Source: Rosa chinensis
Lineage: Eukaryota > Streptophyta > Magnoliopsida > Rosales > Rosaceae
DNA: 64,000 nt
Assembly: GCF_002994745.2 (NCBI RefSeq)
Contig: NW_020126835.1
Location: 62,001 to 126,000 of the forward strand
Reading direction: 5' to 3'
The translations under genes were made by a program, and so were the position numbers. Shown one piece after another: positions 12,785-45,552 of the stretch. The notes under the pieces are model-generated. The model was given only the letters and a program-made list of their open reading frames with translations. It had not been told where the DNA came from and did not search any database. Position 1 is the first letter of the stretch. Each line of letters starts with the position of its first letter.

Positions 12785-12794
<10 letters not shown>

Positions 12795-12815
<21 letters not shown>
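12795..12815 (+). repeat. G21 homopolymer
   Basis: A run of 21 consecutive G (preceded by about ten T), ~50 bases upstream of the MADS ATG. It is G-quadruplex-prone. Its exact length could be a sequencing artefact. Confidence 0.8.
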
Positions 12816-12866
12816 TTATTAATTGGTTTTGGCTTTCTGGGTTTTTTTGGGGTTATGAAGAAAAAA

Positions 12867-15409: not shown

Positions 15410-16019
15410 GCTAGAAATGTGTTTTTGTGCTCCAAAGTGAATTTAAAGTACATTTATTCACTTATTTTGCTAGTGGAGTAGTATAGATGTGCTCCATATT
15501 TTGGTGTTGGAGTAGTATAGTGCTCCTTTTTGGCAATATTGTCTAATACGTTTCAGTACAATTATGTGGATTATAACAATATTAGATATATATTGGTAAT
15601 TACTGTTCATTTGGTGATTTTTGATTTCATTTTCTGCTGTACGTACACAATGTTCACAACAGCCATGCATACAATAAAAACTGTTGTGTGAGAGTAATAT
15701 AGATCATGGATGCAATCAATGTTTTAGTTGTGTGAATAACAGTCACACAACAGTTTTAACAAAAAAAATGACTTCTGAATCACCATCACACAACGGGTTC
15801 TTCAGTTGCCCGTTGTCTGAGTGACGTTCACACGACAGTTAATGATGTCGACAAGCTATCGACAGTCTGTCGACATGCTGTCGACATGGATGCCGAGTTC
15901 TTCAGATGACAGTTCTCTAAATCATGTTTCATCAGACGGCAGCGAGATATACGACAGTCAGCTCCGCATCAGACGACAGTTTTTAGCCGTCGTCTGATTC
16001 AATTTTTGTAGTAGTGACA

Positions 16020-19193: not shown

Positions 19194-20168
19194 TCAGTCA
19201 AGATTGAGAGCATCCATTGACTTAGCAAGTTCCTCTTTGCCATTAGAGTCTGCAACTGTAAGGTTGACGTCTAGGTCATGACCTCCTTCTTCCATATAGT
19301 GAGCCACTTGTTCTTTAGACTCTCTATACCTCTTGTAATTCGCTGCTACTCTGTTTTTTGCTTGGCAGTTCTTGTACCAATGCCCAATGAATCCACACCT
19401 ATAGCATGGTTCATTGTCAACTCTTTCCGTTTGCATCTTGTTGCCATGATCCCCATGTCCCTTTCCACGTGGTGCATGGTTGCCACGTGGGTAGGGATCA
19501 ACACGTCTAAACCCCCTTGCATTGGAGTTATTTCCACCTTTCATTTTTCCATAATTAGCCTCGGGAATTTTCTTTGTCCCAGTGGGCCTGGCATTGTTAT
19601 TCAAGAGAATCTTATTTTGTCTCTCAGCCACTTGCAGTAGGCTTATCAACTTATTGAATGTTGTGATTCTTTTGTTGTCATAATCCAACTGATACTGGTT
19701 CGCTAGTATAAAAGCTGAATTAGGAAAGGTGGTAAGAGTCTTGTAGATCATATCATCTTCTGTGATTTCCCTTCCACAGAAATTGAGACGTGCCTTTAAG
19801 CGCAACATGTCCTTGTTGAAGTCATTGACCTTTTTATAGTCAAGCAAGCGGATTCCATTCCACTGAACAGCCAGTCCTGGGAGCAAAGTATCGTGAATGT
19901 TCCCAAAACGTCCTTTAAGGGCATCCCACAGTGCTTTGGGTGTCTTCAACTGAAGGTACTCCCAGCGTAGGCTAGGATCAATATGTCGCCTCAAAAAAAT
20001 TAAGGCATCTGCTTTCACCTTATTAGATAGTTCATCATCTTTGGGATCAGTAATGGTGGCAGTGTAGTCTTTTGCCACAAAGGCAGTTTCCATATCGGAA
20101 ACCCAACGATGGTACTCAAGTCCTTCTGAGTCCAAGATGTCAAACTCAGGTTGAGTTGGATCAGCCAT
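19194..20168 (-). CDS. Copia-2 Gag, intact
   Basis: A 324-residue Gag starting MADPTQPEFDILDSEGLEYH. The UBN2-type Gag core spans about residues 15-180 (WEYLQLKTPKALWDALKGRF, LLDYKKVNDFNKDM). An Arg/Gly-rich basic stretch follows, then a canonical zinc knuckle CYRCGFIGHWYKNC (CX2CX4HX4C) near residue 255. Gag forms particles and binds genomic RNA. It remains fully open although pol is degraded. A separate upstream gag ORF lets Gag be made without Pol. The first ATG after the leader at 20168 is taken as the start. Confidence 0.9.
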   Translation of the reverse strand: MADPTQPEFDILDSEGLEYHRWVSDMETAFVAKDYTATITDPKDDELSNKVKADALIFLRRHIDPSLRWEYLQLKTPKALWDALKGRFGNIHDTLLPGLAVQWNGIRLLDYKKVNDFNKDMLRLKARLNFCGREITEDDMIYKTLTTFPNSAFILANQYQLDYDNKRITTFNKLISLLQVAERQNKILLNNNARPTGTKKIPEANYGKMKGGNNSNARGFRRVDPYPRGNHAPRGKGHGDHGNKMQTERVDNEPCYRCGFIGHWYKNCQAKNRVAANYKRYRESKEQVAHYMEEGGHDLDVNLTVADSNGKEELAKSMDALNLD

Positions 20169-26650: not shown

Positions 26651-26950
26651 TGTTAAACTATTGCAAGAAAATTGATTCAGCTCGTTTTGTGACACCAGAT
26701 TTTGGAGACTATACGTGTGTGTTAAAATTGCAATTGACTTGCTTTTGGGTAAGTCTTTGGAAATTGTTCGACTTGACTAAGATATACAAGTAGTTATGGC
26801 TGATCTTGTCCATATTCACAAGTTCTTCATAGACAAAGATGGTCGTGTCACAATCAAACCTATATAAAAGTTACAAGATGACCCAAAATCCCAAATGGAC
26901 TTGTATATATATGGACTGTATTGTTGGAACAATTAATTTGCAGTGCAGTA
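26651..26950. other. Intergenic host sequence
   Basis: AT-rich with no gene, ending in CAGTA (26946-26950), the left target duplication of the gypsy element. Confidence 0.5.
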
Positions 26951-27855
26951 TGTAAACACGAAAATCTGAAAGCAAACAAGATACAGACACGTGTACAAAA
27001 ATAATATATTTATTAATTCAAGTGCGGGTTACAATCTTTGGTAATCCTCTTATTCGATCTCCGACGATGAATTTCACTCAAGGGCTCGACGCTTGATCTT
27101 GAGTTGGAAGATAGTCACGAGAGTCGACACGTGACGAGTGCTTTGGCTTGAGGTTGGTGATGAACCGGCTATTTGGCAGCTTGATGGTTCTTCACACGAG
27201 CTTGGGAGGCTTCAGGAATTTTGAGAGTATTTCCTTCTCTTTTCTGGCTGAAGTCCTTTCTCTTGATTTGAGAGGGGGTATTTATAGTGTCGGCGTCTCT
27301 CAATTTGGAATGCCTTGATGACACGTAATTAATTGTATTTTCCTTAATTACGTAATCAAATCAATCAGTCTTAATTAACTGATTTAATCACAACTATTAA
27401 GGAATTAACCAATTAATTTGATGGCTGATTTTAATTGTATTTCGTTAATATCACAATTAAATCAATCAGTTTTGATTAACCGATTTAATTATGACTATTA
27501 AGAAATTTAGCGAATTAATTGGATGACTGATTGTCGTCTTGATCATCAATTTAAATAAACTGATATCTAATCAGCAGACGAGATTTAATACTTGATTTGA
27601 CTTGGAATCAATTGATTTAATTTGATTGATCCGCTTTAATATCAATTGATTTAGCCGGAACAAATTCATTTATTGTCGTCAGGCCTTTCATGTGTCGCCA
27701 AGTGTCATTCTCTGAGTCTGCGTGATTTTGCTGACTCACATGCCACGTGAACATTTTGTGGGACCCACATGCCAACTAAATTTGTTCGGTCATAATTTTG
27801 AGTGTTGACCGAATTATCTAATAAATTTATTTTCATTAAATTTTTAGTGTCTACA
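26951..27855 (-). repeat. 3' LTR of the gypsy element
   Basis: 905 bp, TGTAGACAC to GTGTTTACA on the minus strand. The adjacent minus-strand GTGGGGGCATT (27856-27866) is the polypurine tract. Confidence 0.95.
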
Positions 27856-28325
27856 AATGCCCCCACTTCAAGGTGCGCTGTAAACATGTTATCACGTGTT
27901 GGAAGTGTGACTTGAAGTTTTGATTTTTTTTTTTTTTTTTTTTTTTTGACTTTGACGGCTTTTCCATTTTAGCTTGTCGCAATGCTTTACTTTAACGGAG
28001 CTAGCTTGTGGAACTCCACAGTTGTAGAGATTCCCCTGGAATCTTGATTTAATTTTGTAGAGATTTTCCCGAAGTGTTGATTTAATTTTGTAAATATGGC
28101 AATGACTCCAAATGAGCAGGTGACAAAGCCCATAATATAAGAGTATTTTTTTTGTTTAAATATTTACGGAATAAATCCCTTGATTTTTCCTGAATAAAAT
28201 ATTTATTCACAAAATTTCAGCAACAATATATTGGTGCCATATATATAGCAGAAAATTTAAGATCCCTGCCATATCTTCTGGTCTCAACTAGGAAGTTAAT
28301 GAAGTGAGAAACCCTAGCCTTTTAA

Positions 28326-28332
28326 TATAAAA
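28326..28332 (+). promoter_or_regulatory. Candidate TATA box for the PMD gene
   Basis: TATAAAA in the context of a plant promoter: a CCTAG-type lead-in, then a CT-rich, GC-containing putative leader (28335-28400). Downstream are several plausible intron borders (GAG|GTACGT at ~28589, TGCAG| at ~28908, AAG|GTATGG at ~29141, TGCAG| at ~29267, GAG|GTATGA at ~29450, TTTCAG| at ~29556), so the leader may be spliced. This is inference from sequence motifs. Confidence 0.5.
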
Positions 28333-29572
28333 GGACGGTCTCCTCACTCTAGACTCGGCCGCCTCTCAACTTCCTTGCTTGCTTCATTGCCTTTTGTCTT
28401 TGGTGTTGCAGAAGACCATCTGACAAACGATTAAGGTTATTTGTCTTCACGCATTTCTTCATTAATCATTGAGATGACCAATGGCCTGTGCTGACTACTC
28501 TGTTTTTTTTACTGACAGATAGGGAGTGCTTACCACTGATTCATTGCCTTAAAGACTCGCGAATTATTAAAGCATTGAGGAAACTGAGGTACGTTTCTCT
28601 GTCCTCTTCTGATGCTTTTTTATTTTATATATTTTCATAATCTGCCTCGATCATCTTTGTTCAATTGTCCACATATTTTATATATTTTGTACATGTTCTG
28701 ACGATATACAAATAGATATGCACGGGCTGACTCAACTACCCAAAGCATGATTTTTTTTTTTTTTTGATAACAACCAGAAGCATGATCCATTCTTTAATCA
28801 CTCCTGTTCACATGAACCCCTCATCCTCTTTTCTCATGACATCACTCTTGTTCAAAGCATGATCCTCTGTTTTCCCTTAATCATACTCATATATATGCAT
28901 GTGCAGCGCTGCTTTTCTGATGATGACGTTCACAACATGGCCAATTCTTTTTATTATTATTTTTTATATATATATATATATTTTTTTTTCATGAACATAT
29001 ATATATGGCTACGTACACGTGCAACCCAATCATAATTTTTTTTTTTTTAAAAACTTTGACAGTAGCAAAGAAAAGGAGATCTTGATTTTATCCGTTCCAC
29101 CCTCTGGCTTCGTGTGTCGCTACCACATAAAGGAGATTAAGGTATGGCTCTCAATCTGACAATATATATATGTATATATATATATATATAAACATGCACG
29201 TACAGATCCAAAGTGAAAGCATGATGATTCATTTCTGCACTTAATCACATATGTATGCATGTGCAGCACTGCAGCTCCTGGAATTTCTCCTCACATCGTA
29301 CAATATATGTGTACTCTAACAATTGCTTTAAATATTGTTTCCTTTGTTCAGAACTGTGGTGACAATGAACCCCTGCTCTGCTTTATTTATTTACTGCCTT
29401 TTGCTGCTAATTCCTTCCTTGTACGTCGCAAACAAATCATCAAGCTGAGGTATGACTTTCTGCCCTTTTTTTTCATGACGTCACCCTTTTTTAACGTCGC
29501 ACAGTTTTATGTATATTTCAACATATATATATATATATATTTTTTTTCTTTTTCAGGGTTTTGGTGATCATT

Positions 29573-30056
29573 GAAGAACGCAAACGACCTAAGCGCTTGG
29601 ATTCCTCCACTTTTGTGCGTGGCAGGGTCCGCCAAAAGCAATTAGGCTTTGCGTGTTTATCGACATCAAGGAGAAGAACGTGGACGTCCTAAACGCTTGG
29701 ATTCCTCCACCTTTGTGCGTGGTAGGGTCCACCAAAGGCGGTTAGGCTTCGCGTATTTGGCGGCTCACGGAGAGAAGAACGCGGACGTCCTAAACGCTTG
29801 GATTCCTCCACTTTTGTACGTGGTAGGGTCCATCAAAAGCGGTTAGGCTTCGCGTATTTGGCGGCTCACGGAGAGAAGAACGCGGACGTCCTAAACGCTT
29901 GGATTCCTCCACTTTTGTGCGTGGTAGGGTCCATCAAAAGCGGTTAGGCTTCGCGTATTTGGCGGCTCACGGAGAGAAGAACGCGGACGTCCTAAACGCT
30001 TGGATTCCTCCACTTTTGTGCGTGGTAGGGTCCATCGAAAGCGGTTAGGCTTTGCG
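29573..30056 (+). repeat. 101-bp tandem repeat array upstream of the PMD gene
   Basis: Units start at 29573, 29673, 29774, 29875 and 29976 (GAAGAACG...), spacing 100-101 bp; the last is ~80 bp. Units 3-5 are nearly identical and the first is more diverged. Each carries CTTGGATTCCTCCAC and GCGTGGTAGGGTCC. The array ends ~46 bp before the PMD ATG, so it would lie in the last leader exon. The arrangement could influence transcription or translation; the function is unknown. Confidence 0.9.
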
Positions 30057-30102
30057 TACACCTTCAGACACTCGCGATCGCGCTTCTCAACCATTTGCGG
30101 CC

Positions 30103-33100
30103 ATGGCTTTCTTCAAGTGCTTCAAGAAAGGAACAATCACCATCCTCGACGATCCAGAGGACGCTCAGAGTGATGGCACTACTCTGCAGGTGTATCCATC
30201 GTTGACTGGGCCTCAAGCAATCGATGTCCCTCCTTATGACCCTTCTGCTCACATCCTTCAGTGGACTCATGTGGTACCTCGCCAGCTAGCTATGTTCCGA
30301 CAACCGAGATCCGGAAGAGACCAACAAAACTCGCATGTACTGTTGCTGAAGTCTTCGCATCATGATCAGAACACTCCTCAGACACCATTCAAGCTTCTCA
30401 GCGATCGTGTACGCAACGGTTCAGTGAAGTGGAGCAATGCATTTCGTGCAAACGGGGGCTTCTCTTACACAGAATTCTACTGGGAATGGGTAGAAGATAT
30501 CTTAAGCAGGAATGGCAAGCTTACTCGGGAGGCCGGTCTCTATCGAGCGATATTCGCCTCACTATTCAGCTGTGACCGTGTTGCTTCTGTCATACGGGCT
30601 TTCTGCGAGTACTGGTGCCCCGCGACGAATACTCTCCACACATCTAGCGGAGAAATGTCCATCTCTCTCTGGGATTTGGACCAACTCGGAGGTTTGCCCA
30701 TTACTGGACGGTTTTATGATGAGGTGGTTCCAGCTGCTGAAGAGCTTACTGTAGCAAGCAAAGGGAGTCAACAAAGCTGCCGCTATTTGTTTCTCGCCTA
30801 CCATAAGCTTTGCAAAGAAGGCCAAGGGCAGAAAGTGAAGATAACTTCATGGATACGATATTGGTATAGAGGAGCTTTGCGCTATAAGAGGCCTCCAAAC
30901 AAAAGCACCAGGAACAAAAGAGATCCGCCCCAGAATGTGTTTAATCCATCTGGCAGGATCCATGAGATCCGACAGCGTACTTCTGCAGACCTTGCAGTAT
31001 TTGATGACTTAGGCATTGAGGGTGAAGATGTAGAGTCCACCTATTTGGCTGCCTTTCTTGCTTGTTGGTTGTGTCTGTTTGTTTTACCCATAGACGACAC
31101 TGGTTTGATTCGTCCAGGAGTATTCAAAGTCGCCAGCAAAATGTCACAGGGTGTACAGTTTTGCCTAGCGGTACCAGTGCTGGCCAGCATCTATCAGGGT
31201 TTGAACGAGCTTTCTGTTTCCAGCGATCCAGGTAATTGCTCGGCTGCTCTTCCTTTTCATTATATTTATGCATGGCTAGCAGAGTACTTCGGCACCCACT
31301 TTCAGTCTCCACTTCCCAACGACCTAAGGCCCCGTATGGTTCGCTTCTCCGGAGAACTTTCAGCTAGGCATTTTGGAGACTCACAGGCTCTTTCTTTGTT
31401 CGACACATGTGATAATGTGAAGATGGGTGTATTTGCCAGGGTATTTTCAGAGAGCAGAGTGATTATCAACCGCAGTAACATCTCCCATTTAGACTTGATA
31501 TATCTTATCAGCCTTCGATCCGGGTACCTTTCTCTAAGGCAGGATAACCGACGAGTCGTTCAGCCATACAGTCCACATCGGTTTAGTCGACAGTTTGGTT
31601 ATGTCCAAGACATTCCTGGCAGCCTTAAGAATGACATTCGCACCAGCGTACTAGCTCTGATTTATTTGCATTGGGATTCTTGCACTAGAATGGACACTAA
31701 CTGTGAGGTAACGTTGCCGATCCAGAGTGCTATCACGGAGTATATGGTTACCCGAGACTATGTTGATTGGTGGTCTAAAGTGTATCATTCTACACCAGTG
31801 AAGACAACGAGAGTAGCGCCTCCTAGTAGAACCCTGCACAAGCCTCTAAAAGCAAAAGAAGACAAGGACGTCAACCGCGCTGCGCCTCGTCGCCAGAATG
31901 TGATTGCTTGTGAAGTCGAATGTAGCACCAACGTCCCTGCGCTTCCTGATAGGGCTTCGCTCCCAGATAAGGACCGTCAGGCTCATCCAGTCGACATTCT
32001 AGAAGATGATGGAGACTCTTTAGATTCTCACATCGCTTTCATCCGTCCATTTAAGCTGAAAAGACCTGTCATCAAAGAAAGAAGGCGTAGTGGAAGCAGC
32101 GGTAGCAATGATAGTGAAGTGCACTTTAAGCGTCGAAAAACTGACACCAGTCTTGGCCCTATTTATTGTGACCCTAATGCTGAGTTCACTCTGAATACTG
32201 ACTTTCTTGGTGACATTTCAACTTCTTCGCAACCGATGCTGCAACGAAATGAGGTAACTTTTTTAGACTTGCGTCAGAGATTTTTTTTTTTTCTTTTTTG
32301 TGGTTTTCTTGGAACTTGAATTGTTCTTTTCCCATCTTTTTAGGGTGCAGAGATTGATGGTCATTCACTTTGGGGAAACGATGACGCCTCTTTAGACCCT
32401 ATACGTGTTCCTTCTGCAGCGGAACTTGAGGCTTACGCTTTACCCACGAAAGGAAAATCCAATGCAAAGAATGACTCACAGCAAGTTGACCCTACAGGTA
32501 CAATTCTTAACTCTTGTGTATTTTCATTGCACTTTAAGCCCCCTTTTTTTTTTAACTAATGATATATGTACAGGTCCACTTACCATGGTGCGTCCTCCTA
32601 AGCCTCTGAACACCATAGCCTTTTCTGAGGCCTCTCTTGGTGGAGCTGCTATTATAGATGCCAGCCAAAGACTTCGTGATATTCGTCAACAAGCTGCTAC
32701 TGCAGTTTGTGAACAAATTGAAGATATGATAATGAAGCACTCCTCCAAGACCATTCTTTCCAGCAAGGGGGAACTTGACAAGCTGATAGCTGAGCTTAGC
32801 CATTATGGGATTGATCCTTCATCCGTAAGGGGAAAAGTTGAAGGATTGTTGAATAGTGCTGACCAATACAACTTGGCAAGACTTTCTTGTTCACGCAAGG
32901 CTACTCCAGGCACACGTATTCAACGTCTGGCTGACACAAAGTCAGAAATTGCGAAGGTCACTTCAATTCGTCAAGCTGACTCTGATCATCGTCAATCTAC
33001 ACTCAAGTCTTTGGAGAAATTAAAGGAGGAGCAACAAAAATTGGAGCAAACAGTGACTTTACTAGACGAGAGACTTCTACTACAGGAGAAGAAGCTTGTC

Positions 33101-33232
33101 GACCTAAAAAAAGAGGAGACTCAAATCCAAGAGACCCCCGAGGTGACCACTGCAGAGCTTGAGACGACAAAATCATTGCGAGATACTTTTGAGAACCACC
33201 GCAATAGCTTCAAGGGTTTGACTTGGGTGTGA
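30103..33232 (+). CDS. Plant mobile domain (PMD) protein, three exons, antisense passenger of the gypsy element
   Basis: Exons are 30103-32253, 32344-32497 and 32574-33232, joined at GT-AG borders in consistent phase; the product is 987 residues. The start ATG has a strong context (GCCATGGCT) and gives MAFFKCFKKGTITILDDPED. Residues ~120-560 form the PMD (aminotransferase-like plant mobile domain), with FYWEWVEDILSRNGKLTREA, ISLWDLDQLGGLPITGRFYD and a central FLACWLCLFVLP. A polar, basic linker follows (KERRRSGSSGSNDSEVHFKR). Exon 3 ends in a coiled coil (LEKLKEEQQKLEQTVTLLDE). PMD proteins of the MAIN/MAIL1 type act in plant nuclei on gene expression and transposon silencing, and PMD genes are known to ride in transposons. 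No internal stop is seen. Its role for this element is unknown. Confidence 0.9.
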
Positions 33233-33577
33233 AGAGCTGTTCTCCATTTGTAACTTCTGATGATTTTTTTTTTCATTTTCCTTTATCATTTGTAATAAGT
33301 CAAACTTTGACAGTCATAACTTATTATAAAAAATAAGTACTTTTCTACTTATTTACTTCTTGAATAGTAAACAAACCCTTTATTTTTATTTGATTTGACT
33401 GAACTCGAGATTGTTATTCCCAAGCTGCCTACGTATCCTTCCAATGAAGGAATCAAGTCATCACGTAGTTCAAGGGTTTATGGATGAAGTGAGTTTTTTT
33501 TTGGTCCTTTTTTTTTTGCTTGAGCCGCCCTTTTGGGTTTTCAACTCAACGGACTCTACCTTTTTTTTTTTTTTTTT
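33233..33577. other. PMD 3' region and T-rich spacer
   Basis: TAATAAG and ATTATAAAAAATAAG stretches (33290-33340) after the PMD stop are plausible polyadenylation context. Three T tracts (33487-33497, 33508-33518, 33561-33577) follow. No coding content. Confidence 0.45.
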
Positions 33578-33955
33578 GGTGCCATGTGCAGTTTAGGCTC
33601 ATGCTGGCTAGGAGCGTCTTCTTATGCGTTTCAAGCATAGTACCTCTTCAAAAACTTTCCATTTATGGGGCCAATCCTCAGGCCATCTTCAGCCACAATT
33701 TTGTAGGCTCCATTGGTGTAGACTTCGCGGACTACATAAGGTCCATCCCACTTTGACTGAAACTTTGGTGCCATGTGCAGTTTAGGCTCATGCTGGCTAG
33801 GAGCGTCTTCTTATGCGTTTCAAGCATAGTACCTCTTCAAAAACTTTCCATTTATAGGGCCAATCCTCAGGCCATCTTCAGGCACAATTTTGTAGGCTCC
33901 ATTGGTGTAGACTTCGCGGACTACATAAGGTCCATCCCACTTTGACTGAAACTTT
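33578..33955 (-). repeat. 189-bp tandem duplication of the pol 3' end
   Basis: 33578-33766 and 33767-33955 are adjacent copies with about two mismatches. The right copy contains the pol stop (33820-33822) and the last ~45 codons. The left copy is a downstream duplicate of the same coding sequence, beyond the stop. The unit length equals 63 codons. Confidence 0.93.
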
Positions 33956-36900
33956 GGACCAGTCTTGTGTGTCATAATGATAGGTCTGCGCACGGCAAGC
34001 ACTAGATCACCAACTTGAAAGGATCTGGGTCGAACCCCTTTGTTGAAAGCTCGTGACATTCGAGCTTGATAGCATTCCAAGTGCTGTTGCGCGTCAAGTC
34101 TTTTTTCATCTAAGGCTTCCAACTCCTGAAGGCGTAACTTAACGTTCTCTTCATCAGTCAGTCCCTCTTGCAAAGCAATCCTCAGAGATGGAATCTGTTT
34201 CTCCAAGGGTAAGACAGCTTCAACACCATATACAAGGGAGTAAGGTGTAGCTTTCGTGGGAGTTCGATATGTCGTTCTATAGGCCCAGAGCGCCTCGCCC
34301 ATTCTCTCATGCCAATCCCTTTTTGTTTTGCTGACAACTTTCTTCAAAATGTTGCACAATGTCTTGTTGAATGCTTCAGCCAACCCATTTGCCGGGGCGT
34401 TGTACATAGAAGAAAAGTGTAACTTGAAGTGAAATTTCTCACAGAGTTTCTCCATGGCACTATTGGAAAAGTACTTGGCATTGTCTGTGATGATGCAGCA
34501 GGGAACACCATATCGTTGAATGATATTCCCTTTGATGAAGTCTACAACATTTTCTTTCTTTATTTCTTTAAGCGGTACCGCCTCTGCCCATTTTGAAAAG
34601 GAATCCGTAGCCGCTAGAATGTATGAGTGACTGGAGGAGGATTTCGGAGTTATGGGCCCAACAGCATCAAGTCCCCACACATCGAAGGGGTAGGAAGCAA
34701 TCGTTGGATGCAGTGGCTCTGGTGGTTGATGGATGAAGTTTGCATGAAACTGGCAAGCCTGACACCTTTGTGCATACTCCATGCAATCTTTAACCATAGT
34801 GGGCCAATAGTAACCCATCCTCTTCACTTGAAAATGGAGTTTAGGACCTGACTGGTGAGCTCCGCATACTCCTGAATGAGCTTCCTCCATAGCCTTAGCA
34901 GCTTCTTCTTTCCCCAGACATCTAAGAAGCAATCCATCAAATGATCGTCGATAAAGAGTCTCCTTATAGTAGAAGAAGCGTGATACTCTTCGTCTTATGT
35001 CCAAGCGTTGCTTTGGGTCATCAAACAACTTATTTCGCTCAAGGTAATCAATCAACGGGTACCTCCAGTCATCCGCATCAATCACGTAAACAGAGACAAC
35101 ATTGGAGTATTCATGCCAAAACTCAGAGATTGTAGGTACGACCCACCGTTGGCAGATTGGAAGGTGTATGATTTCATCCTCTGATAATGCCAAAGTTGCT
35201 GCTAAGTTGGCCAAAGAGTCTGCCACTTGATTTTCTTTCCTTGGCACATGCGTTAGTGTAACAACATCAAAACCCTTTAAGAGTTGTGTGGCGAGCCGAA
35301 AGTAAGGAACTAAATCCTCTTTCTTCACTTCATAGACAGTTAATAATTGATCAACTACTAACTTCGAGTCTCCATACACCTCTAGATTTGAGATTTTCAT
35401 TTCAGCTGCGGTTTGTAGTCCCATAATTAGCGCTTGGTACTCAGCAACATTATTGGAACATAGTTCACCAAGAGTAAAGGCGTAAGGCAATATCTGTTTG
35501 TACGGAGAAATGAAGACCACACCAGCTCCTGCCCCATCTGCTCGTGAAGACCCATCGAAGAACATTTGCCAAGCAGGGAGGACCTCTGTATTAAAGACTT
35601 CTTCATCTGGCAACGCATCTGAAATCTCCCAATCCGCAGGAATAGGATGATCCGCTAGGAAGTCAGCCAATGCTTGTCCTTTAACCGCTTTGGCCGATAT
35701 ATAGATGATCTCATACTGATTGAGGAGTAGTGCCCATTTTGCCATTCGCCCTGTCAAGACGGGTTGTGACATAACAAACTTGACTGGGTCAGCTCGCGCC
35801 ACTAGATGCACTGTGTAAGCTTGCATGTAATGTCTTAACTTTTGGATGGCGAAGACGAGTGCGAGACAGATTTTCTCTATCGGTGGATAGTTCAGTTCCG
35901 GTCCTGTGAGAGTTCGACTCAAGTAATACAACGCCCTCTCCTTCTTTGCTTCATTTTCTTGAGCTAGAAGTGCCCCGAGTGATCGCTCTTGAGCAGCAAT
36001 GTAGAGTATAAGCGGCTTCCCAGGAATGGGTGCACCTAACACTGGAGGGTTTGCCAAGTACTTCTTTATGCTTTCAAAGGCGTTATGGCAAGCTTCATCC
36101 CATACAAAAGGCACATCCTTCTTCAGAAGTCGACTAAATGGCTGACACCGGCCTGCAAGGTTTGATATAAACCGTCTAATAAAGGCAAGCCGACCTTGGA
36201 GACTTTTTAACTCGCGTAGATTTCTTGGCTCAGGCATGTCTTGAATGGCCTTAATCTTTGACTGGTCCACTTCAATGCCACGATGTTTCACAATGAATCC
36301 AAGAAACTTGCCTGAACTAACTCCAAAAGCACATTTGAGGGGGTTCATCTTGAGCTGGTACTTGCGTAGTCTGTCAAACACCCTTCTTAGGTCTTGGAAG
36401 TGATCCGTCCTCCTTTTTGACTTGACCACTAAATCGTCGACATAACATTCCACGTACTTGTGAAGCATGTCTCCGAAGATGTTTTGCATAGCACGTTGAT
36501 ATGTTGCACCAGCATTTTTCAACCCGAATGGCATGACTTTGTAGCAATAAATGCCTTTGGGAGTACGGAACGCAGTAAGCTCTTCATCCTCTAAGGCCAT
36601 CCTGATTTGATTGTACCCAGATGACCCATCCATGAAGGAAAAAGCTTCATGCCCTGTTGTTGCATCCACCATGAGTTCAATGATGGGCAAAGGGAAGTCA
36701 TCTTTCGGACACGCATCATTTAAGTCGCGGAAGTCCACGCACACACGGAGTTGTCCGTTCTTCTTCTTGACAGGAACAATGTTTGCAATCCACTTAGGAT
36801 ATTGAACCTCTCTAATGAAACCTGCAGCAATCAACTTATCAACTTCAGCTTCAATTTGAGGCAGGAGTTCTGTCCGAAAGCGTCGTTGCGTTTGCTTGAT

Positions 36901-39363
36901 CGGTCGAGCCTCAGGTTTAACTGCGAGACGATGAACCGCTACCTTTGGGTCAAGACCAGGCATTTCTTTGTACGTCCATGCAAAGACGTCTTTATATTCA
37001 AGCAGCAGATCATAGTATTTCTTTTCTTCTTCGGGACTCAGCGAAGCACTCACGAAGACAGGTCTTGGATCTTCCTTAGTCCCCAAATTGAGCTCTTTAA
37101 GCTCGTCGACAGTAGCTTGCCCCCCGTCTTCAAGTTCTGGAGGAGCTTCATCTACTTCATCCTCAAAATGATCATAGTCATCTTCTTCAAAAGCCTCTGC
37201 TTCTGCTACCGTGATATGATAGGCAGATTGTACAATCTCATCTTCGCTATTGCCATCAACTTGGCCAGTGAGTATGATGGTGTGCTCCTTCACTTTGAGT
37301 TGTTCACTTGAGCTCACCTCTAACACAGAGCGTCGCTTCATGCGTGACGGGATGAGACTTCGGATCTCTTTGTCGTTTCCTTGGTCGTCGATCATCTTTC
37401 TCTTTTGCTTTTGTTGCTCTTTGGGTGCTTGTATCCTCTCAAGTGCCGACTTTCGAGGGGCTGACTCAGATTTCTTATTTCCTTCATCGGAAGATGACAA
37501 CCTATTGAACACGGAAGCTCGAGTGGTCGTTTGGGTGATGCGGTTGAAAACTGAGACTCGGCTTGTTGAAGTATCGACACGATCAAATACAGAGACTCGA
37601 TGTGCCAGCTCATCAACTTGTTCAGGCATCGCAACTTGAGAATTTGGACGAATGCGATCAAGTGCAGAAACGCGAGGGGCAGTTTCAGATCCTTGAGTCT
37701 CTTCTTCTACTACCTCAACACTAATGTGTTGCGTGCTTGCCTTTGCAACTTTTCTTCTTCCTGAAATTTTAATTGGTTTGCTTGGTACAAAACCAAGACC
37801 TGCTTTAGCAGGGTCAGCTATGCGTCCTTGCTCTCTTAACCTCCTTTGAGATTCATTAAGCTCATGCACCTTTTTACCAGGGATGACTTGGCCACCTTCC
37901 TTGCTTAACGAACCGAAGTCATATCCAGCCTTTGCTAGCAGCTTGTAAGCGTTAGGGTCAAATCCTTCCTTTGTCCTTTTGCCAGGAAGGGTACCATGTT
38001 CTGTCTTGCCTTGAATCGATTTGACAAATCCCTTTAGCGGCTGCTTGGTAGGTGTATCGTTGCTCAACTTCGTCAACGGTATGGTTGATGTTTCTTTTAG
38101 CAATTCTATGTCCTTCTCATCTAGCTTTCGCGGACATTCTTGCTCATTTGCCTCTACAAAAGGGGATTCCCCTTCTTTTCTCCTAGACCTTGGCACGTAA
38201 CGAAGAACTGGAGTAGAGGAGCTGATTTTGTTCTTTGAAGCTGTTACTTTAGTTTCTGACGAAACTTTATGTGGTTCCTCATTGCAATTTCTTGCCATGC
38301 TGGGTTCCACTTCTTTATTACGCACTTCTATAGTCTTCCTTGTAGAAGGTACTCCAACTGGGAGAACTTCTTTTATTGTTTCATCCTCCACATAGAACTT
38401 GGAATCCGCAAAGTAAGATTCTGCTTCAGTGAATGGTTTAGTATCACCTGCTACTGTTTTTACTCCGCCATCGTAGAACTTGAAGCATTGATGAAGAGTA
38501 GAGGGGACGACACCATTTTCGTGAACCCACGGTCGTCCTAACAATAAATTGTAGGAGGTCTTTGCTTCGATCACATGGAACAAAGTGTTCGACTTCATTT
38601 CTCCAATTGTCATGTCTACTCTGATCATGCCTATGGCTCTTTGCCCCCCTTGGTTGAAGCCTTGAATCATGAGACGGCTTCGGGACAACTCCTCCACATT
38701 GATGCCAAGCTGCTTCATGGTCGACCTAGGCATAATGTTTACAGCAGACCCTCCGTCTACAAGCATGCGGTTTATCTTTTGATCTCGCACATACCCTGAC
38801 ACGAAGAGAGGTCTATTATGCGGCTTAGAGCCTAACTGAAGGTCTTCATCCGTAAAGTGAATGGCATCACAATCTGCAACACACGTGACGCATTCCTTCT
38901 GTTTCACCTTGTTAATGCCTGTGGAGTTCTTGCCCATGTCAATCAACACCTGTACCAAAGCACATCTTGTCGATTTTGGTAGTTGTAGTAGATCAGGGAT
39001 GCTAAAGTGAAGTGGTAGGTCTTCTAGCTGCTTCAACACCTCATTCTCCTTTGACGTTTGGTTAGTATTGACTGTGCTTGACTCAGCCTTGGCAGAATCC
39101 TTCGAACCAGATTCGTAGCTTGTGGTCATGTGGGCAGTTCTCACCTTTTCTTGTTTGTTGCCTTTCTTGGGAAAGGCTCTTGTTGACGAAGCCACACCGT
39201 GGGGTCTTTGAACAAAAGGATTGCCCCTTTCCTTGACAAATCTTGTCTTACCTTTCTCGAGACATTGACGATTTTCTTGTGACTGCTTATATTTTGCTCG
39301 AGTGATAGGTACATATGGTCCATCCCTCGTCATCAACGACTGAGTCAATTTTAGGGGTTGCAA
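33820..39363 (-). CDS. Gypsy Pol polyprotein (protease, RT, RNase H x2, integrase)
   Basis: 1847 codons without a stop. The protease core is MLVDGGSAVNIM near residue 200 (DGG instead of the usual DS/TG). RT spans about 830-1060, with CYVDDLVVKSK near 974. The first RNase H (~1110-1240) lacks the first catalytic Asp (LYIAAQERSLGALLAQ). The second RNase H (~1265-1390) has FFDGSSRADGAGAGVVF and an intact-looking core. Integrase starts with an H2C2 finger (~1494-1540), then a DDE core with WGLDAVGP, ITDNAKYF and ANGLAEAFN (~1560-1680), and ends without a chromodomain. Pol replicates and inserts the element. It lies in the +1 frame relative to gag with a 77-bp overlap. Confidence 0.93.
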   Translation of the reverse strand: MQPLKLTQSLMTRDGPYVPITRAKYKQSQENRQCLEKGKTRFVKERGNPFVQRPHGVASSTRAFPKKGNKQEKVRTAHMTTSYESGSKDSAKAESSTVNTNQTSKENEVLKQLEDLPLHFSIPDLLQLPKSTRCALVQVLIDMGKNSTGINKVKQKECVTCVADCDAIHFTDEDLQLGSKPHNRPLFVSGYVRDQKINRMLVDGGSAVNIMPRSTMKQLGINVEELSRSRLMIQGFNQGGQRAIGMIRVDMTIGEMKSNTLFHVIEAKTSYNLLLGRPWVHENGVVPSTLHQCFKFYDGGVKTVAGDTKPFTEAESYFADSKFYVEDETIKEVLPVGVPSTRKTIEVRNKEVEPSMARNCNEEPHKVSSETKVTASKNKISSSTPVLRYVPRSRRKEGESPFVEANEQECPRKLDEKDIELLKETSTIPLTKLSNDTPTKQPLKGFVKSIQGKTEHGTLPGKRTKEGFDPNAYKLLAKAGYDFGSLSKEGGQVIPGKKVHELNESQRRLREQGRIADPAKAGLGFVPSKPIKISGRRKVAKASTQHISVEVVEEETQGSETAPRVSALDRIRPNSQVAMPEQVDELAHRVSVFDRVDTSTSRVSVFNRITQTTTRASVFNRLSSSDEGNKKSESAPRKSALERIQAPKEQQKQKRKMIDDQGNDKEIRSLIPSRMKRRSVLEVSSSEQLKVKEHTIILTGQVDGNSEDEIVQSAYHITVAEAEAFEEDDYDHFEDEVDEAPPELEDGGQATVDELKELNLGTKEDPRPVFVSASLSPEEEKKYYDLLLEYKDVFAWTYKEMPGLDPKVAVHRLAVKPEARPIKQTQRRFRTELLPQIEAEVDKLIAAGFIREVQYPKWIANIVPVKKKNGQLRVCVDFRDLNDACPKDDFPLPIIELMVDATTGHEAFSFMDGSSGYNQIRMALEDEELTAFRTPKGIYCYKVMPFGLKNAGATYQRAMQNIFGDMLHKYVECYVDDLVVKSKRRTDHFQDLRRVFDRLRKYQLKMNPLKCAFGVSSGKFLGFIVKHRGIEVDQSKIKAIQDMPEPRNLRELKSLQGRLAFIRRFISNLAGRCQPFSRLLKKDVPFVWDEACHNAFESIKKYLANPPVLGAPIPGKPLILYIAAQERSLGALLAQENEAKKERALYYLSRTLTGPELNYPPIEKICLALVFAIQKLRHYMQAYTVHLVARADPVKFVMSQPVLTGRMAKWALLLNQYEIIYISAKAVKGQALADFLADHPIPADWEISDALPDEEVFNTEVLPAWQMFFDGSSRADGAGAGVVFISPYKQILPYAFTLGELCSNNVAEYQALIMGLQTAAEMKISNLEVYGDSKLVVDQLLTVYEVKKEDLVPYFRLATQLLKGFDVVTLTHVPRKENQVADSLANLAATLALSEDEIIHLPICQRWVVPTISEFWHEYSNVVSVYVIDADDWRYPLIDYLERNKLFDDPKQRLDIRRRVSRFFYYKETLYRRSFDGLLLRCLGKEEAAKAMEEAHSGVCGAHQSGPKLHFQVKRMGYYWPTMVKDCMEYAQRCQACQFHANFIHQPPEPLHPTIASYPFDVWGLDAVGPITPKSSSSHSYILAATDSFSKWAEAVPLKEIKKENVVDFIKGNIIQRYGVPCCIITDNAKYFSNSAMEKLCEKFHFKLHFSSMYNAPANGLAEAFNKTLCNILKKVVSKTKRDWHERMGEALWAYRTTYRTPTKATPYSLVYGVEAVLPLEKQIPSLRIALQEGLTDEENVKLRLQELEALDEKRLDAQQHLECYQARMSRAFNKGVRPRSFQVGDLVLAVRRPIIMTHKTGPKFQSKWDGPYVVREVYTNGAYKIVPEDGLRIGPINGKFLKRYYA

Positions 39364-41176
39364 CAGGCGCGAGGCTCGCTTGCTGGGTTGGCTTGGCTTC
39401 CTCCAACTTTGACTTCATGCATGGCTTTCTCGAAAGCTGATATGGTGCTTTCATTGGAAGAGGAGGCAACGGGGCTGGCTCGAATGAACCAAAGACGATG
39501 GTAGTGCAGTTTACCTCAACAACATCGTCGACATCCAACTCGATCCTTCCTTGCTTGGCAAGATTCATTATTAAATCTTTCAGAACAAAGCATTTCTCCA
39601 CTGGGTGACTAACGAGCCGATGGTACTTGCAGTATTTCGGATCCTTAACACGATGCATTTCCTCGGGCCGCTTGCATTCTGGGAGCTCTATCACCTTCTT
39701 CTCAAGTAGATCCTCCAACATGCCTGCCACGTCAGAATCTGGGAAAGGATATGTCTTTTGTTGCCATTCCTTCAACGAACGCTTTGTTCTGTCGTAGGTG
39801 CGAGTTGGCTCTGCTTTCATAACCTCCTTATCTCGTGTAGAGATTTTGACTGGGGCAATGTTGACAGCCATTGATTCTTTTGTAGGTTTCTTCGGTGCCT
39901 TATCAAACTTGCTTCCGAAGACCTTGTCTTTTCTTTGGTCAACAATTGACTCCTTCTTCCCTTTATGGCTAGCTATACTCAACTCCATGTCGTGTGCTCG
40001 CGTAGCCAGCTCTTCAAACGTACGGGGCTTGATTCCCTGTAAAATATATAGCAAATCAAAGTGCATACCTTGGATGCACATTTCCACCGCAGATATTTCT
40101 GACAGTCGATCTTTGCAATCGAGACTCAACGAACGCCACCTGTTGATGTAATCAATTGCGCGTTCATCCTTCCATTGCTTGGCGCTAGTAAGTTCCATCA
40201 TGCTCACTGTACGTCTCGTGCTATAGAAACGATTCAGGAACTCACGCTCCATCTGATCCCAACTGTCGATTGATTCAGGTTCCAGATCAGTGTACCATTC
40301 GAAGGCGTTACCTTTTAATGAACGTACAAACTGCTTAACAAGATGATCTCCCTCCGTTCCTGCATTGTTGCAAGTCTCGATGAAATGAGCAATATGTTGT
40401 TTTGGATTGCCCTTCCCCTCGAATTGCTGAAACTTGGGCGGCTGGTACCCATAGGGCATCCTCAGGCTATCCACCCTTTTTGTGTATGGCTTGGAATATG
40501 TGAGGGAATCACGAGAGGTACCTCCATATTGAGCTCTAATGGAGTTGTTGATCATGTCTTGCAGCTGCTGAATGGACAAAGAACCAAGTTGGCCATCACT
40601 GTCCTTGTCATTTGCCTTTGACGTTTCTTCTTGTTTGTCTTTGTCATCCTTGTACGGAATCCAAGCAGAATCCTCATCATTTTGCTTCTCAAGCCTGCTC
40701 CAAAGTTGAGCAATCTGCATATCTTTTTCTTCGACGGTGTTGGTGAGCTTTTGAACCGCCTCCATCAGATTAGCTACCTGCTCTTCGAGCGTGGTTGCCC
40801 CAGTCATCATGACTTGCATTGCTGAGGGGTGAGACGCACCGTCTGACTGCATCTCAGAAGTGTTCTTTTCTTCAGCATTAGGACTTCCATGGTATGATCC
40901 GGTGCTTGAGTGATCATCTGAGGCAGGTGAGAATGATCGTTCCCTTGGTTTTGTGTTTGGAGCTTGTCTCTCTTCACTTCGAGGGACATGCTTCCCTGCC
41001 CCTAGACTTTCTAGGGTGATGATTGGTTGGCGAGGCTTAGATGGCAAAGCCACAAATGTTGTAGGCTGAATCTTTGCCATGCTTCGAGTGACGTGACCAG
41101 ATGAGCTGCTGCTCGATTTCGAGGTCGTTGTCTTGGATTTGTTCTTCGAGATGACTTGAATGTTCTTGGAAGCCAT
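39287..41176 (-). CDS. Gypsy Gag
   Basis: 629 residues from MASKNIQVISKNKSKT. An in-frame upstream extension reaches into the LTR, so the ATG at 41176, just inside the primer site, is chosen. A Ser-rich N-terminus and a coiled-coil-like stretch (MEAVQKLTNTVEEKDMQIAQ) precede the retrotransposon Gag domain (FEWYTDLEPESIDSWDQMER, then FYSTRRTVSMMELTSAKQW). A Tat-type C/H finger, YCKYHRLVSHPVEKCFVLKD, lies near the C-terminus. Gag forms the particle and packages RNA. Confidence 0.92.
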   Translation of the reverse strand: MASKNIQVISKNKSKTTTSKSSSSSSGHVTRSMAKIQPTTFVALPSKPRQPIITLESLGAGKHVPRSEERQAPNTKPRERSFSPASDDHSSTGSYHGSPNAEEKNTSEMQSDGASHPSAMQVMMTGATTLEEQVANLMEAVQKLTNTVEEKDMQIAQLWSRLEKQNDEDSAWIPYKDDKDKQEETSKANDKDSDGQLGSLSIQQLQDMINNSIRAQYGGTSRDSLTYSKPYTKRVDSLRMPYGYQPPKFQQFEGKGNPKQHIAHFIETCNNAGTEGDHLVKQFVRSLKGNAFEWYTDLEPESIDSWDQMEREFLNRFYSTRRTVSMMELTSAKQWKDERAIDYINRWRSLSLDCKDRLSEISAVEMCIQGMHFDLLYILQGIKPRTFEELATRAHDMELSIASHKGKKESIVDQRKDKVFGSKFDKAPKKPTKESMAVNIAPVKISTRDKEVMKAEPTRTYDRTKRSLKEWQQKTYPFPDSDVAGMLEDLLEKKVIELPECKRPEEMHRVKDPKYCKYHRLVSHPVEKCFVLKDLIMNLAKQGRIELDVDDVVEVNCTTIVFGSFEPAPLPPLPMKAPYQLSRKPCMKSKLEEAKPTQQASLAPVATPKIDSVVDDEGWTICTYHSSKI

Positions 41177-41233
41177 TGCTCGAACGGATTTGTTTGGAAT
41201 CGTCTTACGGAGAAGGAGATGAGAGGCAAAGAG

Positions 41234-41251
41234 GTCCCACTGGGCGTGCCA
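41234..41251 (-). other. Primer binding site of the gypsy element
   Basis: TGGCACGCCCAGTGGGAC on the minus strand, three bases inside the 5' LTR end. The TGG start fits the CCA end of a tRNA. I cannot assign the tRNA from memory. Confidence 0.75.
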
Positions 41252-41254
41252 ATT

Positions 41255-42159
41255 TGTAAACACGAAAATCTGAAAGCAAACAAGATACAGACACGTGTAC
41301 AAAAATAATATATTTATTAATTCAAGTGCGGGTTACAATCTTTGGTAATCCTCTGATTCGATCTCCGACGATGAATTTCACTCAAGGGCTCGACGCTTGA
41401 TCTTGAGTTGGAAGATAGTCACGAGAGTCGACACGTGACGAGTGCTTTGGCTTGAGGTTGGTGATGAACCGGCTATTTGGCAGCTTGATGGTTCTTCACA
41501 CGAGCTTGGGAGGCTTCAGGAATTTTGAGAGTATTTCCTTCTCTTTTCTGGCTGAAGTCCTTTCTCTTGATTTGAGAGGGGGTATTTATAGTGTTGGCGT
41601 CTCTCAATTTGGAATGCCTTGATGACACGTAATTAATTGTATTTTCCTTAATTACGTAATCAAATCAATCAGTCTTAATTAACTGATTTAATCACGACTA
41701 TTAAGGAATTAACCAATTAATTTGATGGCTGATTTTAATTGTATTTCGTTAATATCACAATTAAATCAATCAGTTTTGATTAACCGATTTAATTATGACT
41801 ATTAAGAAATTTAGCGAATTAATTGGATGACTGATTGTCGTCTTGATCATCAATTTAAATAAACTGATATCTAATCAGCAGACGAGATTTAATACTTGAT
41901 TTGACTTGGAATCAATTGATTTAATTTGATTGATCCGCTTTAATATCAATTGATTTAGCCGGAACAAATTCATTTATTGCCGTCGGGCCTTTCATGTGTC
42001 GCCAAGTGTCATTCTCTGAGTCTGCGTGATTTTGCTGACTCACATGCCACGTGAACATTTTGTGGGACCCACATGCCAACTAAATTTGTTCGGTCATAAT
42101 TTTGAGTGTTGACCAAATTATCTAATAAATTTATTTTCATTAAATTTTTAGTGTCTACA
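41255..42159 (-). repeat. 5' LTR of the gypsy element
   Basis: 905 bp. A TATA box (TATAAATA on the minus strand, 41583-41590) lies ~330 bp from the LTR end. Followed on the right by CAGTA. Confidence 0.95.
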
Positions 42160-43677
42160 CAGTATATTGTAATTTTTTTTGTGTTTTTAAGAGTGTGTAG
42201 TACTCTTTTTCTTTCATAAGGAGTATCGTCTCTCTCGGATTATACCCTTATACATATGGTTTAATGAGACCACTTTTGATTAAGTATTCTTAGTGTTTCT
42301 AATGTTTTTATTTTTATTTTTTTTTCTAATTAGATGGATTCAGTTTTTCAATGGATCCCAAAGCTGAATGAAAATAACACGAAAGTTTGATCAAGACTTT
42401 GATGTGGATTAATTCCGATCGACTTGCTTGACCTTGACTCTAACCAAAATAAGTTGGACGTTTGTATGGAAGTATGTACAAATCAAAAGAAAACATGTCT
42501 GGATATTGCAAAATGGGACTAGTAGAAAAAAAAAAAAAATCTAAATCACTGGATAACAATAAGGTGATTGAAATTTATTTACTTTCCATCAGTATCCTCC
42601 ACCATTGGATTTAGATCTAACGGCAGTTGAGTACAACTGATCATGAAAATAACTGAGTAGGTGAACAAGATTGTACTGACATATCCCCTATAGTGCTCTT
42701 GCCTTGTACTCGGCCGTTTTGATATGAATCCGATCTTATGCTGGAGCTCCCAACTCTTGAACAACCAATTGCAGTGGTAACGATCAAGCACAGAAGCCCA
42801 ACCAACATTTACCACTCATAATGTAAATATAGCCTGTGCGTTTAGTAATGAATAAAGCGAAAGAAAGATCTCTATAATCTGGCTATAAATAGCTACATTG
42901 TCTGCTTTGTGGACTTGAATGCTGAAAAGTTACAAATACTAAAGCAAATGTACAAAATCAATAAAATAGATTCATCATTGACCCTGCAAGCTCGGACGGG
43001 TAACTGTAGAAAACTAAGCAGAGACTAAACAAGGCTTGCTTGCACAAGCAAAATCTCAAATAGTTGGTGTGCATTTTTACTATTGAACTTCAAATCTGTT
43101 TCTGCCATCAGAATAAAAGTTCTGCCACAGAAAACGAACACAAAATTCAAACAGAAACTTTTTCAATGAAAACAATTTGTGCATCTTTACTGCGTTTCAC
43201 CCCTAATTGAGCTTTGGGATTGATTAAGAAACACGAGAATATACATCTTCATGTCAAGGACTCAAAAGAATATACATCTTCGGCCAAGTTTGTCCCATCC
43301 TAGATTCCTAGTTTCTTACTTAAATCTTCCGTATACAATACGTATTCAATCAATAATTGGAAACAATTAAATCTCCAAACATATTTAATAATTTTAATTA
43401 AACAATCAAACAAGCAAGTATAGAAGCATATCATACAGAAGTCCATATATCACTCACGCATAAAAGAGCCAAGAATCTGGCAGGTGCTATCACAGACTTT
43501 GAAGTAATACAATACAGCAAGAGCCAATTGCACTTGACCCTATATGAAACCTGTTTATGAACTTATCTTCTTTGTATGTTTTGCATTTGATCAAACACAT
43601 CAGAGGATGAACAACCATTCTCCTTTTTCAAAACTTTTGTTATATTTATAATAAAATCAAGAACTCATTTATGCAGA
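42160..43677. other. Intergenic, no gene
   Basis: AT-rich. 42326-42512 is ~75% similar, in inverted orientation, to 48605-48784 (shared TTGACCTTGACT and AGTTGGACGTTTGT). The rest, including the stretch directly 3' of the kinase pseudogene, shows nothing I can support. Confidence 0.5.
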
Positions 43678-45552
43678 TCAATAATTGTTATTTACAGAGT
43701 TGGTACCCTTTTGTGAATCTTGTATAGCTTGCTTCAATATCTCTACTACCCGATTCATTGTTGGCCGGTCTTTTGCATTCTTGTTCAGGCAGCTATCTGC
43801 CAGCTTGGCGATTTTCCGAGCTGCATTAATAGAATACTGGTCTCTCAGGAGCAGATCTATTATCATGCTGAACTTCTTACTGTCTGCAGGGTACTGTCTA
43901 ACCCAATAAAGAAGCTTCTGCTCCGCTGTTGGCCGGTGTCTTTCTAAGACACGCCTCCCAGTGAGGATCTCATATAGCACCACACCAAAACTCCATAAGT
44001 CACTATGGATGGAAAGATGGCCTGTTTCAACATACTCTGGGGCAGCATATCCATGAGTCCCTACCACCCGATAACAAAAGCAAATACAATATGAACCAGG
44101 GAAAATGTTAAATAGAAGCAAAGAATCAGAAAGGCGAATAATAACTAATACCAATTGTCCTCTCAATATTGCAATTTAAACAAGATTCTGCCAACCTCCA
44201 AATGAAGTTGACATTGATTTCTAAAAGAACTTGGGGTAGTAATAAAATAAGTCATCTATTATCTATTTACTGCTGTCGATACATGAGTACGGTCACCCTT
44301 TGGCCCTTATCTAGCAAGCCCAAAGTCTGAGTGCTTCGGCTTAAAGTCCTCATCCAAGAGCACGTTGGAGGATTTGAAATCTCGATATATCACCTATTCA
44401 AACAATGCAACAAAAAAGGTTCAACAAAGTACATAAAAATTCTTGTCTTCAAACAAATAAAGAGCTACCATGCGAGGTAAGCCATTATCTACCATCCTTA
44501 AATACACGCTTTAGCATTTGGATATTGATGGGCAGAAGCAAAAATAGAAGACAGCTTTTGTTTCAGGCTCACAAGCAGAGCTGAACCAAATCTATGATGT
44601 AGTATTATAACATTAACATTAAAGCACAGAGAGCATTTTTAAGTAGCGAGAATTTAAATTTTTCCCCTTAATTGACTTTCAGCTACAGCAATGGAAGAAC
44701 AAGATCAGGGGACTAGTGTGTTGAAGTAAACAGTGGGTACCAATTAACGCGCAGAAATTACATAATGACAATTTAGTTCATGCTTCTTTTATATTACTCC
44801 CAAGTTTTATGTCCAATTTCGATTTGTACTAGACAGCAAAGAAGAGTGCATTGTCATTTGAAGGTTTTGAACTCAAGAACTCTTATACTATGTGACACAA
44901 CCACAGGGTCCCAACAGCTAAAGCTTTTAGAGAACAGAATACATCAAGATAATGGACAGTTACTGAAGTGACAGTGTCCAACAATGTATGTAACTGAAGG
45001 CAATAATATTATTAGCAGATACAATTTAAGTTCCAAAACCAGAGATGCCACTATAAATGCAGCAAACAAGTAAAAGATGTATGACGTAATAAGTAGTTGC
45101 TACATTCCTAGTCCTACTTCTAATACTTCACTAGCTTAAGCAGGTCATTATATTGATTTGGTATTCCATTGGTCAAATTCACATGGATGAGTCACATGTT
45201 CACATGATATGGTAGTTCTACATTCCAAACAAACTCAAAGGAAATGCAAGGTCACACATAGGTCAAATAAATGAAAACTATATTCACCTGGACTTCCAGT
45301 CCCTCGTGTAGATAAGCCAATCCGAGCTTGAGCAGCACCAAGCATTATTTGTAACCTCGTGATCCAAGGAAGAGGGTTCAAAACCCTGTTGAAAAGATGA
45401 TCTTCTAAGCTCCTATTAGGCATATATTCACATACCAATAGCCGTTGGATCCCTCTTTCTCCATCTATAGAGCAATATCCTAGAAGCTTTGCTAGATTTG
45501 GGTGACTTACCACACCAAGAAATTGAACCTCTGCAAGCCATTCTTTATGACC
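43678..45552 (-). pseudogene. RLCK-VII kinase pseudogene, copy A (PBL19/PCRK-like)
   Basis: Three exons on the minus strand. Exon a (45552-45288): [20 protein letters not shown] and [15 protein letters not shown], ending in a scrambled [13 protein letters not shown] where [10 protein letters not shown] is usual (frameshift). Exon b (44393-44271): VIYRDFKSSNVLLDEDF, then SDFGLAR followed by TAA. Exon c (44067-43678): [18 protein letters not shown] through kinase subdomains IX-XI to a normal stop. The acceptor before exon c is CGG where copy B has CAG. The P-loop exon was not found. Intact relatives are cytoplasmic immune-signalling kinases. Stop, frameshift and splice-site loss together make this copy dead. 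Confidence 0.88.

Follow-up and report, generated by a model that had tools for sequence, protein, structure and literature searches.

How can a gene with introns persist in a retrotransposon, which is copied through RNA, and what might the element use it for? We address this question on a 64,000-nucleotide stretch of Rosa chinensis DNA (contig NW_020126835.1, positions 62,001 to 126,000; hereafter the window), in which a whole Tat-type Ty3/gypsy element bears, antisense to its gag-pol genes, a three-exon gene of the plant mobile domain (PMD) family. The element illustrates how an intron-bearing gene outlasts reverse transcription. Our first choice, put forward tentatively, is that a retrotransposon lineage of the Tat branch has long carried this gene as an accessory one, with an anti-silencing function.

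The joined exons form 987 codons plus a stop (988 in all), with GT-AG borders falling exactly where a reading of the letters (hereafter the sequence-only reading) had placed them. This frame is not a product of chance, since the plus strand of 30103-33232 holds a stop-free run of 738 codons and the longest run in 1000 base shuffles was 230 codons (mean of the longest runs 105). Both introns are 71% A+T, and each has stops in two of three frames. The splice model is further supported by the Rosa chinensis protein LOC121051359 (P0001), because its annotation was made by others: it has the same start and length, aligns without gaps with 40 of 987 residues different, and at both junctions shows the sequence expected from splicing. 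A search against PF10536, which the sequence-only reading had proposed as a check, places the protein in the PMD family, with a match at residues 145-558 that spans the entire profile (1-347 of 347) at E 2.7e-32 and 112.7 bits, above the curated cut-off of 34.9. An NCBIfam scan gave no match above cut-off.

The gene is enclosed by one pair of long terminal repeats (LTRs) and one target site duplication (TSD), CAGTA on both flanks, and is therefore Gypsy-encoded; as had been proposed, it sits between pol and the 3′ LTR, in the opposite orientation to gag-pol (Table 1). The LTRs align without gaps at 99.34% identity, with 6 differences, and end in TG..CA. The insertion is young: at a substitution rate of 1.3e-8 per site and year, the 6 differences correspond to an age of roughly a quarter million years. 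In the genomic RNA of the element each intron reads CT..AC instead of GT..AG. The introns survive reverse transcription because the genomic RNA carries them as reverse complements, which cannot be removed as such, and the explanation given in the sequence-only reading thus holds.

Table 1. Features of the element and of its antisense gene (positions in the window; ORF, open reading frame; RT, reverse transcriptase; nt, nucleotides)
Feature	Position	Strand	Remarks
Whole Tat-type Ty3/gypsy element	26951..42159	-	15,209 bp; LTR pair, TSD, gag/pol domains
TSD CAGTA, one side	26946..26950	.	sequence
3′ LTR	26951..27855	-	905 bp; 6 mismatches to 5′ LTR; internal tandem 27329-27532
Presumed polypurine tract adjoining 3′ LTR	27856..27868	-	read from sequence
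Candidate TATA box, antisense promoter for PMD gene	28326..28332	+	pattern only; one of many TATA-like sites in A+T-rich leader
101-bp tandem array, 4.8 copies	29573..30058	+	just upstream of PMD start codon; candidate target array or leader element
PMD exon 1	30103..32253	+	717 codons: N-terminal part, plant mobile domain (residues 145-558), linker start
Intron 1	32254..32343	+	90 nt, GT..AG
PMD exon 2 (linker)	32344..32497	+	sequence
Intron 2	32498..32573	+	76 nt, GT..AG
PMD exon 3	32574..33232	+	linker end, C-terminal coiled coil (residues ~798-979), stop
189-bp tandem, 2 copies	33575..33957	.	between PMD stop and pol end
Protease-RT-RNase H-second RNase H (aRH)-integrase ORF	33820..39363	-	overlaps gag ORF by 77 nt, different frame
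gag ORF as listed	39287..41302	-	Retrotrans_gag E 2e-12; starts, as listed, at a TTG within the LTR
Presumed primer binding site	41234..41251	-	begins TGG, 3 nt from LTR; read from sequence
5′ LTR	41255..42159	-	905 bp; contains 2-copy 101-bp tandem at 41633-41836
TSD CAGTA, other side	42160..42164	.	sequence

The lineage of the element follows from its pol ORF, in which RT, RNase H, a second RNase H (RVT_3) and integrase score above the Pfam cut-off and a protease match falls below it. The residue order is RT_RNaseH 1114-1217, RVT_3 1269-1388 and H2C2/rve 1485-1655. A second RNase H between RNase H and integrase is a mark of angiosperm Tat elements (PMC6317226), so by this domain order the element is Tat, in agreement with the earlier assignment; we leave the subclade unassigned. 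The mark of Ogre elements, a gag-protease ORF set apart from RT, RNase H and integrase by an intron-like gap, was not found in the element, which is not filed as Ogre because its weak protease match shares an ORF with RT and because the gag and pol ORFs overlap. Another Ogre mark is a primer binding site complementary to tRNA-Arg; a presumed primer binding site was read from the element, and a tRNA scan of the 64-kb window gave no tRNA. Transposase_28 (PF04195) had no match in the three element proteins scanned; an extra ORF with this domain is reported in only 23% of Retand elements, and the feature is not diagnostic. Among the records listed, a Rosa rugosa protein is the closest to pol, with 94% identity across 841 residues. 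The true gag start must lie further in, since the listed one is mechanical and runs into the LTR. Several relatives (P0128, P0131, P0132, P0148) fuse gag and pol in one protein of 2163-2607 residues; the separate frames here point either to a mutation that altered the frame of this copy or to programmed frameshifting, and with gag and pol so split the copy may lack autonomy.

Gypsy-encoded PMD genes are reportedly on record from Steinbauerova et al. in 2011. PMD clades A1 and A2 are encoded only by Gypsy elements, the direction of transfer being left open (Ikeda et al. 2017, PMC5418596), and PMD occurs in 57% of Ogre elements (Neumann et al., PMC6317226). It is also the most frequent non-canonical domain among 25,565 LTR-element consensuses from 121 genomes, occurring in ten species, or in 40 when no filter is applied (PMC9289625). 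The rose gene resembles these cases in bearing PF10536 in an extra ORF of an angiosperm Tat-branch element, and it is a further member of this published kind. The accessible text of the cited literature makes no mention of introns in Gypsy-encoded PMD genes. In position and orientation the gene also resembles maize Grande gene23 and the extra ORFs of rice RIRE2, Silene Retand and bean PvRetro13, which lie antisense between pol and the 3′ LTR, and PvRetro13 is reported to have an SMC-like domain, of which the coiled coil at the C-terminus of the rose protein is reminiscent (PMC7264820). It differs from them in having a PMD and two introns, whereas those ORFs reportedly show no clear similarity to other proteins except for Transposase_28 (Retand) and SMC (PvRetro13).

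To follow the history of the gene we scored 7988 candidate proteins, 258 of which were relatives at E 0.001 or better; the best 120 of the 258 are listed and considered here. They include the same-length Rosa chinensis protein and diverged proteins from other eudicots. PF10536 is present in all 120, and none has MAIN or MAIL in the visible part of its name. In a tree of the window protein and 52 chosen relatives (53 rows; quick method, Shimodaira-Hasegawa approximate likelihood ratio support, SH-aLRT, only, with long-branch warnings), the window joins Rosa chinensis (100), these join Fragaria and Argentina (100), and Prunus joins Malus (95); 14 rows make up one Rosaceae set (99), 3 of which group with Malus. 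This branching is the order of the Rosaceae species as generally known. Because the Rosaceae part of the tree follows species, the gene was most likely handed down inside elements within this family, and a recent capture of a host gene is rejected for the window. The supposition of the sequence-only reading that the gene is host-derived consequently finds no support, PMD-A1 and A2 moreover occurring only in Gypsy elements with the direction of transfer open (PMC5418596). Outside Rosaceae the tree departs from species order: the nearest set is Ericaceae (100; Rhododendron, Vaccinium), not Fagaceae or Salicaceae, for which several old parallel lineages, horizontal transfer or a long-branch error of the tree are possible explanations.

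The position of intron 1 gives a further indication of age. At the corresponding place the window protein reads ..RNE|GAEI.. when spliced and ..NEVTFLD.. when unspliced. Two full-length Prunus proteins, presumably spliced models (P0004, P0009), read ..LMNEGEVV.., and the Prunus-like P0021, about 50% identical, has ..LMNEVCILF.. with a stop shortly downstream and is judged from its source to be an unspliced call; its break falls at the same residue as window intron 1. Intron 1 therefore seems old, the shared position being claimed for P0021 only. Among the listed relatives, 17 of 120 were taken to be unspliced calls (sources ena, jgi, lgn): seven end in hydrophobic tails at the linker (P0006, P0007, P0008, P0021, P0055, P0058, P0064), one (P0063) seems to be translated across a nearby intron, and nine give no clear sign, in a sorting that was partly by eye, with hydrophobic-tail fractions of the two sets that nearly touch (lowest 0.56, highest 0.52). 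P0017, P0018 and P0054 continue with no sign of an intron. A shared intron position was rejected for the Malus-like P0006-P0008, which break at ‘EKDV’, some 30 residues before window intron 1 in the alignment.

The protein, by these comparisons, changes fast relative to pol. The closest full-length PMD identities are 38-39% (Malus) and 39% (Prunus), with 54% for Prunus over 474 residues, and the compared ranges are 32-39% for Malus and 39-54% for Prunus, partly over fragments; the closest pol records stand at 80% (Malus) and 81% (Prunus) and the others at 64-79%, although the closest pol and the closest PMD records possibly come from different elements. Such divergence would suit a passenger, that is, a once captured or ancestral frame riding along with no function in this family, but other genera retain the full-length architecture, an open frame and apparently one intron, and the 40 replacements between the two Rosa copies come with no gap; we consider a passenger very unlikely. 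Where a transposon preserves an intact gene of this sort, the gene most likely serves the transposon's own ends. Between the window and LOC121051359, 19 of the 40 differences crowd within 190 residues of exon 1 (144-332; P 0.0018 in 5000 permutations, the length being chosen post hoc; P 0.022 with a length of 100 residues). The longest difference-free gap is 145 residues (P 0.065), with no difference in 371-514. This clustering may reflect either fast change in part of the N-terminal module or template switching between element variants.

What the protein does is suggested by its predicted shape. The model has a compact N-terminal and PMD module (1-568), a disordered linker (569-796), in which both intron positions fall, and a coiled coil (798-979). 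The predicted fold of the module matches the DNA-bound, crystallised part of VANC21 at 7-10% identity, and the crowded residues 144-332 lie within the matching module. VANC21 is encoded by VANDAL21, a Mutator-like element (MULE) of Arabidopsis; it binds a nine-base motif. The targets of VANC proteins are often arranged as tandem repeats within the noncoding DNA of VANDAL elements, and whole elements lose their methylation through VANC (PMC5735166, PMC10398659). The rose gene is like it in predicted fold, in being transposon-borne and in the tandem repeats that lie in the noncoding DNA of its element. It differs in that its element is a retrotransposon and not a MULE, in the low identity and in the lack of a DUF1985 or DUF287 match.

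The match is a prediction and involves a single structural neighbour. Foldseek searches of the PDB and BFVD with the full-length model returned no row at E 0.001 or better, for which reason a model of the domain alone was used; the 50 of 143 PDB rows listed for the full-length model are largely coiled coils and helical bundles, VANC21 not being among them. A VIA-align comparison of the full-length model places VANC21 first, with rows 2-50 on the coiled coil. The full-length profile A2 gave 229 matches to PDB sequences, and all 60 listed lie in positions 701-929, in the linker and coiled coil. The window module matches PF10536 alone at E up to 10, with no DUF1985 or DUF287, in a search whose HMMER filters drop most weak matches; PF10536 is present in 27 of 27 members of the module alignment A4, window module included, and 25 of 33 families are listed in the Pfam scan of that set. 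No structural link between PMD and VANC was found in searches of an open-licence library; the paper on structure 9LNJ may state it.

The host proteins MAIN and MAIL1 share the PMD with the rose protein, but they are products of host genes (PMD-C) that act in silencing and in the expression of motif-bearing genes. In main, mail1 and pp7l mutants, 25 of 26 commonly lowered genes share a promoter motif, and direct recognition of this motif by a PMD complex is one option named by the authors (PMC7156037, PMC9899485). The simplest joint reading of the VANC21 fold and of these motif-sharing genes would be that the PMD is a DNA-binding module. Under our preferred reading the rose protein would use it to counter the silencing of its own element, acting at candidate sites that include the LTRs and the CpG-rich 101-bp array that adjoins its start codon. 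A silencing-related role, the other half of the supposition in the sequence-only reading, becomes more plausible with the fold match. A 2021 review had already suggested that elements may make PMD proteins against silencing, naming VANC21 in the same paragraph as a parallel strategy (PMC8616336), and PMC6419827 names VANC and the plant mobile domain in separate talks; both PMC8616336 and PMC9289625 still treat the PMD as a domain whose function is unknown.

A wider proposal, which we regard as rather doubtful, is that the PMD is a VANC-type sequence-specific DNA binder, that Tat elements and MULEs share an anti-silencing family tuned to their own fast-changing repeats, that MAIN and MAIL1 are host versions put to the opposite use, and that the rose factor is an antisense, spliced member acting on the 101-bp array. 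The fold match deserves follow-up, since with it the role of a ‘domain of unknown function’ becomes open to a direct test of binding. If the PMD does bind a short DNA motif, this would account for the ‘DOWN’ motif found at MAIN/MAIL1-dependent genes, put the anti-silencing suggestion of the 2021 review (PMC8616336) on a molecular footing and mean that DNA transposons and retrotransposons share a single tool of the arms race.

The same facts on host proteins bear on self-restraint, by which the PMD protein would condense or silence copies as MAIN and MAIL1 do, or antisense RNA would pair with genomic RNA to give small RNAs, in either case limiting copy number. MAIN and MAIL1 do silence transposons (PMC5418596, PMC7156037), tea has 175 phased small-RNA loci at PMD genes (PMC10673657), and double-stranded RNA from antisense genes is discussed by Vicient and Casacuberta (PMC7264820). 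However, the intact 987-codon frame and its full-length relatives are left unexplained by a pure antisense-RNA role, and clade PMD-C, which holds MAIN and MAIL1, is reported as distinct from the Gypsy clades A1 and A2 (PMC5418596); we judge self-restraint unlikely. By analogy, the phased loci of tea could arise from overlapping sense and antisense transcription of the kind that the rose element would give.

The DNA-binding-like fold and coiled coil, as modelled, would also suit a tether, and the gene might then be an accessory replication factor that acts in the nucleus on element cDNA or on the integration complex (import, target choice), as retroviral accessory proteins do. The antisense protein of maize Grande is reported to be nuclear, with a retroviral-accessory-like role proposed (PMC7264820). 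Nothing in this analysis points to contact of the PMD protein with integrase or cDNA, and the PMD seems dispensable for replication as such because only 57% of Ogre elements have it (PMC6317226), so that we give this alternative a low probability.

The candidate target array favoured for the anti-silencing role has 44 CpG and 2 CHG in 486 bp, and no other such stretch in the window is as dense in CpG. Its observed/expected CpG ratio is 1.28, higher than that of the LTR (1.11), of PMD and gag-pol (0.67), of the leader (0.63) and of the 189-bp repeat (0.39). As a hint, this may mark DNA that has escaped methylation and deamination over time, or it may be a chance make-up. Array, LTR and leader have 3 eight-mers in common where shuffles give 3.3, and such shared short words were accordingly rejected as candidate binding motifs. 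The DOWN motif was found 5 times with one mismatch against 6.8 expected, and the VANC21 motif 3 times against 2.0 expected, none of them within the element. The one array unit that was folded as DNA gives an imperfect hairpin with a z of -2.0, and equally good folds came from 6 of 200 shuffles. The tandems inside the LTRs also have a period of 101 bp, with a consensus that differs from that of the array.

Some further observations concern the gene and its relatives. By eye, the leader (28300-30102) has strong-looking GT (28589, 29142, 29450) and AG (29266, 29556) sites, which could delimit introns in the 5′ untranslated region. Table 3 of PMC8213826 counts 48 genes of a PMD orthogroup for R. 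chinensis but 0 for Rosa rugosa, and the orthogroup is described as lost; the ‘loss’ may be a difference in repeat masking, since the Rosa PMD gene studied here sits in a retrotransposon. A viral-contig search with P0001 yielded one candidate (L001), rejected as a 22-residue match on what looks like an unrelated phage contig with dense short ORFs on both strands. With alignment A2 (86 rows), no relative was found in 464 viral-contig and 69 genome-contig candidate stretches, from collections not meant for plant DNA.

Around the element, the window holds a copia gag-like ORF whose match does not reach the Pfam cut-off (19194-20168, -), a protein kinase fragment (43678-44166, -), an RNase H ORF (53217-53771, +) and a gypsy-type gag ORF (61492-62631, +). 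Two regions, 4436-18114 and 55826-58871, consist of blocks of repeats about 66-74% identical in both orientations, and are probably older elements around the insertion.
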